64,000 nt of DNA from contig NZ_FTNR01000004.1 of the NCBI RefSeq assembly GCF_900156475.1, positions 62,001 to 126,000 on the forward strand, given 5' to 3'. Positions 5,243-41,155 of this stretch are shown here, in pieces; the first letter of the stretch is position 1, and every line of letters begins with the position of its first letter. Origin of the DNA: Natronorubrum thiooxidans (GTDB taxonomy: Archaea > Halobacteriota > Halobacteria > Halobacteriales > Natrialbaceae). The position numbers and the translations under genes are program-made. The notes beneath the pieces were generated by a model. It had not been told where the DNA came from. It saw only the letters and a list, made by a program, of their open reading frames with translations, and made no database searches.

Positions 5243-6385
5243 CTACAGCTGCGGTTCAGGCATCGTCTGCGTGTCGAGAGTCCGGTTTCGAAGCGCGGTG
5301 CCACTGGCACGATCAAAGATGTGGATGGCGTCTTCTGGCACGTGGGCGATCACTGACTGTCCCTCCTCGACATGGTGGAGGCCGTCGATCGTCGCGACGA
5401 ACGTCTCCGTCGAGTCGGCGTCGAACGTGAGATAGACGTTGTTCTCGTTGCCCATCGGTTCGACGACGTCGACGAACGTCTCGTAGCTGTGTGTGTCGTC
5501 CTGGGTCGAGCGGAGCTCGATATCTTCGGGCCGGATCCCGAGCACGAGTTCGTCGTGGTCACCTAGCTCACTCGCCGTCTCGGGTGTGAGGTCGTACGCG
5601 AAGTCGTCGTGGACGAGCGTCTCCCCGTCACGGCTCACGTCGAAGAAGTTCATCGACGGCTCCCCGATGAAGCTGGCAACGAACAGGTTCGCGGGCTCGT
5701 GATAACACTCCAGCGGCGTGCCGACCTGCTGGAGCTGGCCGTCGTTCAAGATGGCGATCTTGTCGGCCATCGTCATCGCCTCGGTCTGGTCGTGGGTGAC
5801 GTAGATCGTCGCGACGCCGAGGTCTTCCTGCAGGCGCTGGAGTTCCGTTCGCATCTGCGCGCGGAGCTTCGCGTCGAGATTCGAGAGCGGTTCGTCGAGC
5901 AGGAATACCTCCGGATCGCGGACGATCGCCCGCCCGAGCGCGACTCGCTGTTGTTGTCCGCCAGAGAGGTCGTCCGGCTTCCGATCCAGCAAGTCGTCGA
6001 TGCCGAGCATCGTTGCAGCGTCTTCGACCGTGGCCGTGATCTCCTCGTCGGGCATTGAGGTCGACTCCTCGAGGCCGAACGACATGTTTTCACGGACAGT
6101 CATATGCGGGTACAGCGCGTACGACTGGAACACCATCGCGATGTCCCGCTCGGCGGGTTTCGCGTCGTTGATCACCGAGCCGTCGAGGCGAATCGCGCCG
6201 TCACTGACGGTTTCCAGCCCCGCGACCATTCGGAGCGTCGTCGATTTGCCACAGCCGGATGGGCCGACGAGAACCAGAAACTCCCCGTCGTCGATCGCTA
6301 GCGATACCTCGTCGACGGCGGTAATCTCGTTCCCGTCGTCTTCTACGAATACTTTGGTTACGTCGTCGAGTTGTAGGTCAGCCAT
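5243..6385 (-). CDS. Sugar ABC transporter ATP-binding protein (MalK/UgpC type)
   Basis: A 380-residue ATPase that powers carbohydrate import. Walker A GPSGCGKST is at 41-49, Q-loop in MVFQSYALYPHMTV near 84-97, signature LSGGQQQR at 140-147, Walker B VFLLDEP at 160-166, and the H-loop in IYVTHDQTEA. The C-terminal third (from about 240) is the TOBE/OB region found in MalK, UgpC and ThuK. It is the last gene of a leftward set of two permeases and a binding lipoprotein, 21 bp after permease 2. The sugar cannot be read from the ATPase; the nearby ThuA and Gfo/Idh genes suggest a disaccharide such as trehalose (inference). Confidence 0.94.
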   Translation of the reverse strand: MADLQLDDVTKVFVEDDGNEITAVDEVSLAIDDGEFLVLVGPSGCGKSTTLRMVAGLETVSDGAIRLDGSVINDAKPAERDIAMVFQSYALYPHMTVRENMSFGLEESTSMPDEEITATVEDAATMLGIDDLLDRKPDDLSGGQQQRVALGRAIVRDPEVFLLDEPLSNLDAKLRAQMRTELQRLQEDLGVATIYVTHDQTEAMTMADKIAILNDGQLQQVGTPLECYHEPANLFVASFIGEPSMNFFDVSRDGETLVHDDFAYDLTPETASELGDHDELVLGIRPEDIELRSTQDDTHSYETFVDVVEPMGNENNVYLTFDADSTETFVATIDGLHHVEEGQSVIAHVPEDAIHIFDRASGTALRNRTLDTQTMPEPQL

Positions 6386-26276: not shown

Positions 26277-26597
26277 ATGGACTGGCCACACGATCCCGAT
26301 GGAGAGCAAGGAAGCGATGGGATGCGACGGTTTGATATGCGAATTATCGCCGACAAAGTCGACGAAGAGGAGGATTTCCCGCTGAATCGCGACGAGTTCG
26401 TCGCTGAACACGGTGACGACCCGATCCGAATCAACTACAAAAAAGTCGTGCCGATGAGCGAGATCTTCGACTACATCGATGTCGAGGAGTTCGAGACGAT
26501 CCTCGACATGCACAAAGCAGTCGGTGCGGCGATGCGAGCTGGTGACTTCTGGGACTACCACCCACAGGGTGCCAACCCCAAGAAGAAACACGCCTAA
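26277..26597 (+). CDS. DUF5785-type conserved haloarchaeal protein
   Basis: A 106-residue soluble acidic protein starting MDWPHDPDGEQGSDGMRRFD. It contains DFPLNRDEFVAEHGDDPIRI and MSEIFDYIDVEEFETILDMH, and a lysine-rich end NPKKKHA. It looks like the haloarchaeal DUF5785 family; the family name is from memory. The start is supported by CCCTTTTG about 28 nt upstream. No known function. Confidence 0.75.
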   Translation: MDWPHDPDGEQGSDGMRRFDMRIIADKVDEEEDFPLNRDEFVAEHGDDPIRINYKKVVPMSEIFDYIDVEEFETILDMHKAVGAAMRAGDFWDYHPQGANPKKKHA

Positions 26598-26666
26598 CTG
26601 CTGGGCGGGGCTGCTGTCACTGTGTGGCGCATCCGCGGGCGGGTCGCGGTTGCACCAGTAAATTGC

Positions 26667-26678
26667 TACAGCAGACCG
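26667..26678 (+). repeat. Solo copy of the palindrome arm found at 39.6 kb
   Basis: TACAGCAGACCG here matches the right arm (TATAGCAGACCG, 39652-39663) and, inverted, the left arm (CGGACTGCTGTA) of the palindrome at 39586-39666 with one difference each. It lies between the DUF5785-like gene and the GTP cyclohydrolase gene. Confidence 0.3.
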
Positions 26679-26790
26679 CACGACAGCAGTTCGTGTGAGT
26701 TGTCGTCGATTACCGATCGCGTTTTCTTGGCCCATAACGAATCTGGATTACGTATCACTTATACGACGGCGTTCAAAAGAATCGATCACC

Positions 26791-36574: not shown

Positions 36575-39295
36575 ATGAACTACGGTCTCGACATCGGGCC
36601 GGACGCGATCCGGGTCGCTATCGACACGCCAGACGGGGTGATCCTCGAGTCGGCACCGGCCCGTGCCACACCGGCCGACGCGGAGACGGGGTCGGCGAGA
36701 GGCATCGACGCGGAACCCGGCGAACCGCTGCTCTCGAACGGTGTGCTGACTGCGGACAGCGACGTCGAGCCGGCGCTCGAGGCACGCCTCCAGGACGTTC
36801 TCGATCTCGACGACGCGAGCGACGGGCAGCTCTGTTATACCACGCCTGGAACACTGGTCGACGCGGCCGAACCGACCGACGCTCGACGTGATGCCGTCGG
36901 TGCGGTTCTCGCCGATCGCGGACTCGATGTGACACCGATCCACAGCGGGTTCGCCGTCGTCTACGACCAGTTCGCCGACGACAACTACACTGGCCTCGGC
37001 GTCCGTCTCGGCCCACAGACGACCAGCGTCGCACTGGCGTACTACGGCGTGCCTGCGGTGGCGTTTTCGCTTGCGAAAGGCAGCGACTGGGTCGTCGACC
37101 GGGCCGCCGACGACACGGATCACGAGCAGGCAGCGGTCGCGTCCGCGCTCGAGGCGTTCGCGCTCGACCCCGACGCGGCGACGGACGAGGTCGAGGCCGC
37201 ACTCACGACGGCGTTCGACGCACTGATCGGCGACCTCGCCGACGCGCTCGAGCGCGAAGCCGGGTCGGCTGATATCCAGCGAGGGTTGGCCGTGCCGCTT
37301 GCCGTCGCGGGACCGGACGCGGTCGAGGGCCTCGAATACCTTCTCGCCGGCCGCGTCGATAGCACACTCCCGATCTCGGTCCGCGATCCGCGACGCGCCG
37401 ACGAGCCGGCCGCAGGCGCTGCCAGAGGGGCGCTCGCGGCTGCGAAAGACGGCGTCGAAGCCCACGAGGCCGTGACGTGGTCGCCGGCTGACGCGGACGA
37501 CGGCGACGGAACCGATGGCACTGTGACAGTGACCAAGCCGACCGGCGAGACGACACTGACGTTCGACGACGCGCTCGATGGCGGAGCCGATGCGGACCGC
37601 GCTCGCGCGGACGACGCGATCGAGCAGTTATTCGATCGGCTCGCCGACCGAGACGACGAGATCCAGTCGATCCGGGCCGATCTCGAATCGGCGGTCGACG
37701 ATCTCGACGAACTCGATGCGCGGACGGCCAGCGCCGACGTAGTCGCGGCCCTCGAAGGCGACCTCGAGCGGATCGCCGAGGAACTGCGCGATCTCGAAGC
37801 CGAAAGCGCGCGCCATGCGAGCAAGCAAACGGTTTCGACCCTCGAAGGCAATCTCGAGACACTTTCGACCGCGTTCGACGGGGTCGAAGACGACGTCGGC
37901 GACCTCGAGTCAGCGTTGGAAGACGAATTCGACACGCTCGAGGCGATGATCGAAACCCTCGAGACGACGACGGCGGACGAGCGAGCGGCACTCGACGACC
38001 GAATCAGTGACCTCGTGGACGATCTCGACGGCGTTTCCGACTGCACTGACACGCTCGACGATCTCCTCGAGGCGCTTCGAACCGAGGTGGAGTCCCTCGA
38101 AACGACGACCGCATCGGCAGCCGACCTCGACGCCGTGACAGAAACCGTCTCGCGGCTCGACGACGACCTCGACACCGTTGGCGAAGACGTCGCTCGACTC
38201 GGGTCGCGATCTGATGGACTTGCCGGCCGGCTCGAGGAACAAGCGACTCGGATCGGCAGCGTCGCCGATCGACTCACGGCCCGCGCTGAGCAGGCCGACG
38301 AGAAACGGGCACAGCTCGAAGACGGCCTCGAGACGGTCGAAACGAGTTTCAAGGACGAACTCGGGACCGTCGAACGCGACCTCGAAACGATTACTGAACG
38401 GCTTGGCGATCTCGACGGGCGGATCGCCGAACTCGGTGGCGAACTCGAGACGACCGCCACTGCCCTCGAGGCTACCGGCGAGCGACTCGGCTCGACGGAG
38501 GATCGCGTGGGGGCGCTTGACGAGGCGCTAACCGACGTCCGCGAGCGTCTTCATGACCGAACCGACGATCTCGACGCCCGTCTCAAGACTGCTCGAGAGA
38601 CGATCACGACCCTCGAGGAAACGGCCGCTGACGACGCGCGGGTAGCCGCCGTCGAAGACGACCTGACAACGGTCGAGACGGTGGTGGCTGATCTGGAAGA
38701 CGACGTTTCGGCCGTCTCGGAAACCGTGGAAACGCTCGAGGAGCGGACGGCCCCAGTAGAGGCGGTCGAGGACCTCGAAACAGATCTCGACGGAGTCGAC
38801 GATGATATCGATTCCCTGACCGACAGCGTGCGCGCGCTCGAGGAGCGCGTCGACGAGACGATGATCGATCTTGAGGCCCGACTCGAGGACGCTACCGAAA
38901 CGATCGACGACGAGGTGACAGCGCTCGAGTGCCGTCTCGAGCGCACGGTCGAGGAAAGCGTCGACGACCTCGCGGCGACGCTCGACAGGGCTGACGATTC
39001 GACCGAAGCGCAGCTGTCGGCGATCGAGACCCGCGTCAGCGATCTCGAGTCCGCGATCGAGACTGACCGAGCGGACGACTTCGAAGCGATTCGAACCGAT
39101 CTCGAGACCGTACAGGATCAGATCGAGACGGATGCCGCTCCAGCTCTCGGCACGCAACTCGCCGCTGGTGGAGGCGGTGCCGGTGTCGTTGCAGGGAGCG
39201 TCGCTGCGCTTACCGGCGAGGCGACCGTCGGAATCGCCGCGGTCGTCGTCGGGGTGGTCCTGATCGCTGCGGTGATCGTTCGTGAGCACTCATAG
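36575..39295 (+). CDS. Actin/FtsA/Hsp70-like domain fused to a long coiled coil and a C-terminal membrane anchor
   Basis: A 906-residue acidic protein. Residues 1-290 follow the ASKHA (actin/Hsp70/FtsA) order: a phosphate-1-like MNYGLDIGPDAIRVAIDTPD, a phosphate-2-like GLGVRLGPQTTSVALAYYG near 140, KGSDWVVDRAA, and an adenosine-like LAVAGPDAVEGLEYLLAGR near 240 followed by AAGAARGALAAAKDG. The motif glycines and acids are partly altered, so ATP hydrolysis is uncertain. Residues 345-858 are almost continuous heptad-like coiled coil (LETTTASAADLDAVTETVSR style). Residues 860-902 form one or two membrane spans (AAVVVGVVLIAAVIV) before REHS. The build suggests a membrane-tethered filament or scaffold. 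No homologue name is recognised. The gene stands alone. Confidence 0.8.
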   Translation: MNYGLDIGPDAIRVAIDTPDGVILESAPARATPADAETGSARGIDAEPGEPLLSNGVLTADSDVEPALEARLQDVLDLDDASDGQLCYTTPGTLVDAAEPTDARRDAVGAVLADRGLDVTPIHSGFAVVYDQFADDNYTGLGVRLGPQTTSVALAYYGVPAVAFSLAKGSDWVVDRAADDTDHEQAAVASALEAFALDPDAATDEVEAALTTAFDALIGDLADALEREAGSADIQRGLAVPLAVAGPDAVEGLEYLLAGRVDSTLPISVRDPRRADEPAAGAARGALAAAKDGVEAHEAVTWSPADADDGDGTDGTVTVTKPTGETTLTFDDALDGGADADRARADDAIEQLFDRLADRDDEIQSIRADLESAVDDLDELDARTASADVVAALEGDLERIAEELRDLEAESARHASKQTVSTLEGNLETLSTAFDGVEDDVGDLESALEDEFDTLEAMIETLETTTADERAALDDRISDLVDDLDGVSDCTDTLDDLLEALRTEVESLETTTASAADLDAVTETVSRLDDDLDTVGEDVARLGSRSDGLAGRLEEQATRIGSVADRLTARAEQADEKRAQLEDGLETVETSFKDELGTVERDLETITERLGDLDGRIAELGGELETTATALEATGERLGSTEDRVGALDEALTDVRERLHDRTDDLDARLKTARETITTLEETAADDARVAAVEDDLTTVETVVADLEDDVSAVSETVETLEERTAPVEAVEDLETDLDGVDDDIDSLTDSVRALEERVDETMIDLEARLEDATETIDDEVTALECRLERTVEESVDDLAATLDRADDSTEAQLSAIETRVSDLESAIETDRADDFEAIRTDLETVQDQIETDAAPALGTQLAAGGGGAGVVAGSVAALTGEATVGIAAVVVGVVLIAAVIVREHS

Positions 39296-39385: not shown

Positions 39386-39517
39386 CTACTCCCGGATCAA
39401 CTCAACGTTTCGCATCTCGCCCCCGCAGCGCCGGCAGCTACCGAGGAGTGCGTCCGCGACCGTCTCTCGGCGGCCACAGACGACACACTCGTACTCGAGT
39501 GGTTCTACAACAGACAT
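39386..39517 (-). CDS. Rubrerythrin-like zinc microprotein, 43 residues
   Basis: Starts MSVVEPLEYECVVCGRRETV and continues ALLGSCRRCGGEMRNVELIR. The C-x2-C ... C-x2-C-GG spacing matches the short rubredoxin/rubrerythrin-like knuckle proteins annotated in haloarchaea. It binds zinc or iron; function unknown. A second member of the same kind lies at 41697-41837. Too short for normal ORF cut-offs. Confidence 0.75.
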   Translation of the reverse strand: MSVVEPLEYECVVCGRRETVADALLGSCRRCGGEMRNVELIRE

Positions 39518-39585
39518 GTTCGTAGGTATGTAACGAGGTGTGTTAACTCTTTTCATGGTAAAACGCGACTACGGGCGCGGCTGTG

Positions 39586-39666
39586 ATACGGACTGCTGTA
39601 GTCAATTACCGCCGATCACCGACCCGTCTCTGGTGATCGGCGGTAAATCGGTATAGCAGACCGTAT
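39586..39666. repeat. Large near-perfect palindrome, 81 bp
   Basis: The core is a perfect 14-bp inverted repeat TACCGCCGATCACC (39607-39620) / GGTGATCGGCGGTA (39632-39645) with an 11-bp centre. Outer arms ATACGGACTGCTGTA (39586-39600) and TATAGCAGACCGTAT (39652-39666) pair with few mismatches. It lies 24 bp beyond the stop of the MFS gene. It could be a miniature inverted-repeat element, a very strong terminator or a cruciform. Confidence 0.75.
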
Positions 39667-39690
39667 GAGTGTGTCGAGCGTACCGCCGAG

Positions 39691-40956
39691 CTACTCGAGG
39701 AACCAGAGCACGACACCGAGTCCTGTCGCGGCGACGATCGCGGCCGCGAGCAACCAGAATGCAGCCCGGAAGCCGGCTGTTTCCGACAGCGTGCCGACGA
39801 TCGCGGGTGCGACCGCGCCTGCACCCATCAACATCGTTCTGACCACCCCGAGTCCACCGCCGGCGACGTCATCAGGAATCGTCGACATCAGGTACGCCCC
39901 CCGCACGGGTCGAAAGCCGTGTGCACCGATTCCGACGGCGACGAGTGCGGCGCCAAGGACAATCGGACCGACCGAGCCGGTCAGTGAAATAAACGCGATG
40001 AGCGCGAGCGAGGCGAGGCCCAACGTCGCGACGATTATCGGGAGTCGGCCGATCCGATCGCTGAGGTCGCCTGTGACGAGTTGAACCAGACTCGCAAGGA
40101 AGAGCGCGCTGTAGAGGACGCCCGCGACCGCATCCGTCAGACCGGCCGCCTGTGTAAGGTAGAGCGGGGCAAACGCAACGAATCCGTTGTACGTGAAGGA
40201 AAATAGGATCGTCAGGAGGGCAAACACCGAGAATCGCCAGTCTCGAAAGAGCGTGACGTACTGGCCAACGCCGACGGTTGTCGCTGCGGTCGGCGCGGCG
40301 TCACCTTCGGATTCGCTCGGCAAGCGTCGGGAGACCCGGGTTCGGAACACCACGGCGAGGCCGAGCCCGGCGAGACCGGCGAACAGGAAGATGAGCCGCC
40401 AGCTATCGCCAAGCGCAAACGAAACGCCCGCGACGACGACGATCGCAGCGGGTGCGACCACGCCGCCAAAAGCCCCGAACGTATCGAGAACCCCGAGCGC
40501 CCGACCAGTCCGGGACGGATACGCTCGAGACAACAGCCGGACGGCGACGGTCTTATGCGCTCCGGTTCCAGCACCCATGACGAGCATCGCTCCGACGAGG
40601 ACGAGAAACGGGGAGTCGAAGACGAGCGCGAGCGCCGCGAGCGCCGCGACGAGCGCACCGGCAGTAATGACGACGATTGAACCGAGTCGGTCGGCCAGCA
40701 CGCCCGAGGGGAACTGCATCGCGGCATAGACGAGCATAAATCCGGAGAACGCCGTTCCGAGGACCGCGTTTGAAACGCCGTAGCTCGCCTGAAACGAGCC
40801 GAACAACGGCGGAAACGCGTACCGCAAAAACTTCCCGAGAAACCAGATCGCCGCCGTCACCACGAGCACGTCGTACTGTGCGACCTTGCTGGCCGCCTCT
40901 CGAATCGACGCCTCGTTCACGTTCGCCAGTAGGTCAGTGGCCGGATGAATACTCAC
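39691..40956 (-). CDS. MFS transporter
   Basis: A 12-span transporter of the major facilitator superfamily with the A-motif GVLADRLGSIVVITAG after TM2 and its repeat GDLSDRIGRLPIIVATLG after TM8, plus AYPSRTGRALGVLDTFGAFG. With the GTG at 40956 it has 421 residues; the frame stays open to a GTG at 41046 (451 residues) that is about 25 nt after a weak TATA-like CAATATG, so the longer form cannot be excluded. Substrate unknown, the fold being close to sugar-phosphate or drug carriers. Confidence 0.85.
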   Translation of the reverse strand: MSIHPATDLLANVNEASIREAASKVAQYDVLVVTAAIWFLGKFLRYAFPPLFGSFQASYGVSNAVLGTAFSGFMLVYAAMQFPSGVLADRLGSIVVITAGALVAALAALALVFDSPFLVLVGAMLVMGAGTGAHKTVAVRLLSRAYPSRTGRALGVLDTFGAFGGVVAPAAIVVVAGVSFALGDSWRLIFLFAGLAGLGLAVVFRTRVSRRLPSESEGDAAPTAATTVGVGQYVTLFRDWRFSVFALLTILFSFTYNGFVAFAPLYLTQAAGLTDAVAGVLYSALFLASLVQLVTGDLSDRIGRLPIIVATLGLASLALIAFISLTGSVGPIVLGAALVAVGIGAHGFRPVRGAYLMSTIPDDVAGGGLGVVRTMLMGAGAVAPAIVGTLSETAGFRAAFWLLAAAIVAATGLGVVLWFLE

Positions 40957-41155
40957 CGATTCGAGACTCGAGTACGCCCAGAAGTCGACACCGACGCGCG
41001 GCCGAACGCCGCTGACCCTGCGCTCGGGCGGACACCGAATCCACACCTTATCTGAGAGGGAAGCGCCTCATATTGATGTGATTAACCACCATATGGTTGT
41101 ACTAGTTCTTAACCGATCAACATTATATGGGTGTCGATGCCAGAATACGGTACCG

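Follow-up and report, generated by a model that had tools for sequence, protein, structure and literature searches.

A palindromic miniature mobile element in Natronorubrum thiooxidans and its insertions at stop codons

The palindrome in the window and its surroundings

The window analysed here is the whole 64,000-nucleotide stretch of the Natronorubrum thiooxidans genome (contig NZ_FTNR01000004.1 of assembly GCF_900156475.1, positions 62,001 to 126,000), in which a long palindrome lies between a gene for an MFS transporter and a small gene encoding a protein with CxxC pairs. Further to the left, positions 36575–39295 encode a 906-residue protein whose residues 44–290 match Volactin, an archaeal actin (Pfam, E 1.1e-90), and whose long region after this domain matches many coiled-coil families. 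A stretch just before the small gene is kept in two relatives that do not carry the element. The features of the locus are listed below with the evidence for each; bit scores are those of R1, a covariance model built from 50 copies of the element.

26604–26680, no strand assigned: second, decayed copy of the element (R1, 44.6 and 44.5 bits on the two strands, E 2.8e-9)
39386–39517, minus strand: small gene for a protein with CxxC pairs (43 aa; Pfam DUF7129, E 3.4e-9), with the element in its upstream region
39584–39586, no strand assigned: left copy of the target duplication, TGA (sequence; 3-bp duplication found family-wide)
39587–39665, plus strand: window copy of the palindromic miniature element (MITE), 79 bp (R1, 98.4 bits; aligned with 49 other copies)
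39587–39600, plus strand: left terminal repeat, TACGGACTGCTGTA (inverted-repeat search, copy alignment)
39606–39620, plus strand: left arm of the inner stem, 15 bp, perfect (inverted-repeat search, fold)
39621–39631, no strand assigned: loop of 11 nt, inverted relative to the arms in four other copies of the same genome (copy alignment)
39632–39646, plus strand: right arm of the inner stem (inverted-repeat search, fold)
39652–39665, minus strand: right terminal repeat, reading TACGGTCTGCTATA on that strand (inverted-repeat search, copy alignment)
39666–39668, no strand assigned: right copy of the target duplication, TGA (sequence; 3-bp duplication found family-wide)
39691–41046, minus strand: MFS transporter gene (Pfam MFS_1)

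The long palindrome reported at 39586–39666 in the preliminary description was confirmed, with arms of 35 nt (39586–39620 and 39632–39666) that are 83% complementary and separated by 11 nt. The centre of 11 nt given there stands, but the perfect inner stem, TTACCGCCGATCACC, comprises 15 bp and not 14 bp. From the ends inwards the element consists of its terminal repeats, TACGGACTGCTGTA / TATAGCAGACCGTA, followed on both sides by unpaired bases, and of the inner stem and the loop. As RNA, the palindrome folds with a computed energy of -49.4 kcal/mol, compared with -22.8 ± 3.05 kcal/mol in 200 shuffled sequences (z -8.7), none of which was equally stable. The outer arm described as recurring singly at 26667–26678 is indeed present at that place; it is not solitary, but forms the right end of the second, decayed copy, which begins 6 bp past the TAA stop of the gene at 26337–26597. 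With up to one mismatch the arm has four matches in the window, against 0.63 expected. The TAG stop of the MFS gene is placed 22 bp from the right copy of the target duplication, and the insertion in the window is therefore not one into a stop codon.

Dispersed copies, target duplications and unoccupied sites

The palindrome is far from unique in the genome, since the exact 12-mer arm occurs 65 times, compared with two occurrences of a reversed control. Searching the 4.21-Mb genome (62 contigs) at the DNA level yielded at least 67 matches on both strands with 40 of 90 candidates scored, and R1 gave 148 matches on both strands that correspond to 97 distinct places, a lower bound because 150 of 3440 first-look candidates were scored. 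These copies are short (65–95 bp, with 84 of the 97 at 78–81 bp) and carry no transposase gene. Forty-five of them measure exactly 80 bp; their median pairwise identity, computed without re-orienting or aligning them, is 61%, and no two are identical, which gives the impression of an old family that has diversified in this genome. Two interior types with the same ends could be distinguished in the alignment, and in four copies (L009 1507–1585, L022 1505–1583, L028 1503–1580 and L047 1499–1577) the loop is inverted relative to the arms, which suggests a hairpin-mediated inversion or an exchange between arms. One near-tandem pair, a few bases apart, was also seen (L126, G000 C42:155880–156052).

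The flanks, which read approximately GWCTSAGWC, carry an exact 3-bp duplication at offset 0 in 60 of the 97 copies, compared with 0–3 of 97 at each of 12 shifted offsets; the remaining 37 copies have no exact duplication. The duplicated triplet is TGA or TCA in 59 of the 60. Of the 66 copies flanked by TNA at either end, 60 have the same middle base in both triplets and one has complementary bases, which identifies a direct repeat, that is a target duplication, and excludes a palindromic extension of the element. Outside this genome, an exact duplication flanks 31 of the 32 best copies of the same taxonomic family and 25 of 26 copies drawn from three other families (six genomes).

Unoccupied sites were searched by comparing the element-removed flanks of 12 loci of the genome with 10 Natronorubrum genomes (its own included). 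All 12 loci gave a match across the junction in some relative, the window's own site aligning poorly: relatives G155 and G156 do not have the element there, and alignment fails over the few bases of the site. Twenty relative stretches, chosen from the matching rows, were then fetched and aligned. Seventeen of the alignments fall at 11 loci where the element sits in a stop codon, and they show the same single triplet in 12 cases, another stop codon in three and neither in two; by locus, the same triplet is present once in at least one relative at nine of the 11, and another stop stands there at two. At C22:123499 and C43:100588 the alignment is good on the gene side only. Mobility can also be followed in genome G115, where two elements of the same build but with different terminal repeats (TACTGCCGGCTGTA and TACTGGTGGCTATA) are nested in copies of another family and flanked by TAA at either end (L274, L275). 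Three copies in G107, and likewise three in G115, are identical to one another letter for letter and differ in their flanks, which indicates that movement in these two genomes has been fairly recent. Terminal inverted repeats, target duplications and dispersed copies with unoccupied sites in relatives are the marks of a MITE, and the guess of a miniature mobile element made in the preliminary description proved right.

The fold is maintained in the aligned copies. Standard pairs occupy 88.8% of the cells in 50 copies, against 80.6% in shuffled controls, sliding the pairing partner destroys the pairing, and the outer helix is paired in 90% of the cells. Both sides of a pair have changed in 91 cells (29.2 ± 4.4 in shuffles), although the number of pairs with such a change, 14 of 28, does not go beyond the shuffles (54 of 500 as high). 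Terminal repeats found in other families differ in sequence and are still self-complementary: TACGGTCGGTTGTA in G115, TACGGATTATTGTA in G107 and G085, TACGGACTGTTGTA in G102, and TAATGATTACTCTC or TAGTGATTACTCTC in G137. Palindrome and length are thus retained although the sequence differs, with the caution that the uniform size in other families is partly owed to discovery because a model of 80 positions favours that length.

At E ≤ 1e-4, R1 was found in 43 of 61 genomes of the same taxonomic family (own genome included) and in 22 of its 29 genera, the count per genome being in many cases a minimum, at or near the 76 candidates scored. Over the whole class it was found in 47 of 116 genomes from five families, and copies from four of these were inspected. 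Natronorubrum bangense and N. sulfidifaciens are among the carriers, as are plasmids of Natronorubrum, Natrinema and Natronococcus (five records). No match was obtained in the phage collection, and no exact match of the two repeats in IMG/VR. In one region (G013:C1:710300-715300, L281) a stretch of about 4 kb between ordinary genes is crowded with several copies whose ends are related.

Insertions at stop codons

Genes were called with a home-made finder that scores codons and had been trained on the window. The predicted stop codon of a gene is the duplicated triplet itself in 50 of the 97 copies of the genome (38 of the 60 with exact duplication); the same holds for 19 of the 32 best copies found elsewhere in the family and for 12 of 26 taken from other families. 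Only one of the 97 lies inside a predicted gene, which has a weak gene score. When the element and the right-hand triplet were removed before gene calling the count was 43 of 92, a treatment that can cost imperfectly duplicated sites their stop. Public annotation agrees for two of five plasmid copies, the other three being intergenic. On a plasmid of N. bangense the annotated gene of a cation:proton antiporter ends with the TGA duplication, and on a plasmid of Natrinema thermotolerans the stop of tpiA is TAA, the duplication reading TTA on the opposite strand. In NZ_CP031306.1 (50000–99999, L267) an element begins 13 bp past an aldehyde dehydrogenase gene; this 827-kb "plasmid" of N. bangense bears housekeeping-type genes such as gatB.

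Where the duplicated triplet stands in frame as the stop, it must have preceded the insertion. With a TGA stop as target, the upstream gene retains a stop of its own after the duplication and its protein is unchanged. The codon before the stop tends to GAC in the 50 stop-codon copies (G in 37, A in 30, C in 37). An artefact of genes truncated by the element was considered and rejected, as orthologues confirm the position of the stop at all 11 loci.

A conserved regulatory hairpin or terminator, spread by selection and not by transposition, would likewise present a very stable fold directly after many genes and paired changes that preserve it, and a published survey places a peak of perfect inverted repeats 50–80 bp after archaeal stop codons (PMC13155455). 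Target duplications, unoccupied sites and nested copies speak against such an origin, as does the orientation relative to the gene, which is random (24 same, 26 opposite). The strong hairpin terminator guessed at in the preliminary description found no backing, with no enrichment of T-tracts: TTTT follows within 80 nt downstream in 14% of the 50 stop-codon copies and in 23% of 214 other gene ends, so that an intrinsic terminator of the bacterial type was rejected. For the regulator-binding array also guessed at in that description, no indication was seen. Rfam gave two nearby matches, both far below the gathering score and neither on the element. Spread by selection is accordingly very improbable as an explanation. 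The transposed copies may have a role as 3'-UTR hairpins.

We are confident that the element is a non-autonomous MITE of about 80 bp, nearly all of it palindrome, that would be moved in trans and has about half of its copies in stop codons. A transposase supplied in trans would cut a short palindromic target close to GWCTSAGWC, with a stagger of 3 bases as the duplication implies, and the inserted element is left with T[G/C]A on both sides. Insertions inside predicted genes are almost absent, and the preferred target coincides with GAC-TGA, a common gene end in haloarchaea. The protein-sparing duplication, perhaps together with a real preference for the site, would be the reason why about half of the copies found lie exactly in stops, where they would put an RNA hairpin directly after the gene.

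How much of this bias is due to targeting was evaluated from the available sites. The 97 segments of the genome (some overlapping) contain TSA triplets at 168 TGA stops, at 1734 intergenic places and at 5375 places in genes, and stops amount, unweighted, to 9% of the non-coding triplets. When sites were weighted with the flanking motif, learned from the non-stop copies only (22 with exact duplication), the expected share of stops rose to 35% over all non-coding sites, or 25% without the occupied ones; with intergenic sites restricted to those within 200, 100, 60 and 30 nt of a gene 3' end it reached 42%, 51%, 60% and 72%, respectively. The observed share is 63% (38 of 60). Insertion could therefore be blind to genes, copies in coding and 5' regions being lost and GAC-TGA merely matching the target, and the chances that survivorship and this coincidence account for the whole bias appear evenly balanced. 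The closer-range expectations and the flanking motif shared by non-stop copies favour it, and stops missed among the 22 copies behind the motif would raise the expected shares further. It is opposed by the excess of the observed share over expectations of 25% (p ~4e-10) and 30% (p ~1e-7), and by the 19 of 92 insertions located more than 200 nt from a 3' end, which indicate that the element can use sites remote from genes. Loss of harmful insertions and the match to GAC-TGA explain a large part of the stop bias, perhaps most of it.

For a transposon that duplicates 3 bp a stop codon is a nearly perfect safe haven, because the duplicated triplet restores the stop. Were insertion truly biased towards stops, this would help to explain how many copies persist in compact, gene-dense archaeal genomes, and would offer a testable example of proteome composition, with acidic proteins ending in GAC-TGA, shaping the choice of target. 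The positions of the copies suggest that in each carrier genome the 3' UTRs of dozens of mRNAs open with the same mobile hairpin, a point of consequence for annotating genes, for terminator searches and for work on 3' ends.

The putative mobilising transposase and comparison with known systems

None of 21 PF01609 loci in the genome, nor of 30 out of 53 such loci in G115, G107 and G017, has the ends of the element, and those PF01609 insertion sequences (IS) whose ends were clear differed in their termini and were flanked by duplications 8–10 bp long. No pair of exact repeats at IS distance was present in the genome or in G115. In the latter, 53 exact hits of the terminal repeat resolve into 21 pairs of 78–79 bp, two nested pairs of 160 bp and seven singles; no IS was seen around the six singles examined with about 5 kb on each side, and the seventh coincides with a model match. 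Among the matches listed for G138 and G013, three inverted pairs 2.9–3.8 kb apart are separate copies with ordinary genes between them, in which no transposase was evident by eye, and no terminal-repeat pair at IS distance was seen in G025, G046, G024 and G023. Finally, 66 non-acidic, transposase-like candidates near copies, judged by eye from their first 60 residues, were mostly membrane and housekeeping proteins, with none recognised as a transposase. As no partner was found, we infer a transposase acting in trans, encoded either by an IS with weaker similarity at its ends or by a solitary gene.

The first of these options, an ordinary MITE of an IS5/IS1031-like IS that has the same terminal repeats and is absent, decayed or divergent at its ends in the genomes examined, has in our judgement about an even chance of being correct. 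The terminal repeats, the fixed 3-bp TNA duplication and the palindromic CTNAG target are the traces expected of it, the genomes are drafts or samples, and a MITE may share just a few terminal bases with its parent, as stated in PMC3119063. Against it are the resolution of the G115 hits into pairs of MITE length, nested pairs and singles without an IS, the differing termini and longer duplications of the PF01609 elements, and the variation of the terminal repeats by lineage.

That variation, combined with a constant architecture, is what would be left by a solitary chromosomal transposase devoid of terminal repeats of its own, acting in trans and co-evolving with the element in each lineage as in REPINs. 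The identical copies in G115 without any flanked partner agree with it, and so does the distribution among genera, as the element is absent from all sampled members of g6 (2/2), g7 (3/3), g9 (3/3) and g11 (3/3) and has many copies in g13 (3/3) and g29 (2/2); genera g18, g28 and g5 are mixed, which does not fit. No candidate gene was found near the copies or at the repeats searched above, and the 3-bp target duplication departs from the behaviour of RAYTs, the HUH-type transposases of REPINs, which are not known to duplicate their target. A solitary gene of this kind is a tentative and somewhat doubtful option. Rather unlikely still is the broadest extension of it, an archaeal system spanning the class, whose solitary transposase, inherited with the host, would maintain lineage-specific palindromes and direct them into self-repairing stop codons, so that dozens of genes per genome gain a mobile 3'-UTR hairpin and keep their protein.

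The MITE reading itself can be set against known systems on several sides. The IS1031 group of the IS5 family and PIF/Harbinger elements make a 3-bp duplication of the TNA type, which is shared by the family described here, but no such transposase is linked to its ends. REPINs and REP sequences are palindromic, extragenic, lineage-specific and of high copy number, and are possibly moved by an unlinked transposase (RAYT). In these traits the family is like them; it is unlike them in its terminal repeats and in its 3-bp target duplication, which REPINs are not known to have. REPINs are the subject of PMC3116915, and the 3-bp duplication of PIF/Harbinger elements is also given in PMC2213677.

Within Haloarchaea, the SMRs of Haloquadratum walsbyi, such as the 80-bp HqIRS41, are similar in being about 80–110 bp long, in having ends unrelated to known transposons and in being frequent in a haloarchaeon. 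In their published description (PMC3119063) they are reported as lacking a target duplication and as inserting into other mobile elements, while the present family duplicates TNA and sits at gene ends; the two are set apart here by description and not by sequence. A search of open PMC papers, with ISfinder and the subscription literature outside its scope, gave no stop-codon-associated haloarchaeal MITE in the titles or the beginnings of abstracts among the matches listed. Prokaryotic MITEs in general, as characterised in PMC10969869, are short and non-coding, have terminal inverted repeats and direct target duplications, and occur in many, mostly intergenic copies, all of which holds for the present family; it differs from them in that no parent IS was found, in a palindrome of about 79–80 bp that takes up nearly the whole element (copies inspected in four families) and in the placement of about half of the copies in stops. 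The element is thus a MITE without a known parent, set apart by its near-whole palindrome, steady size, class-wide spread and stop-codon habit.
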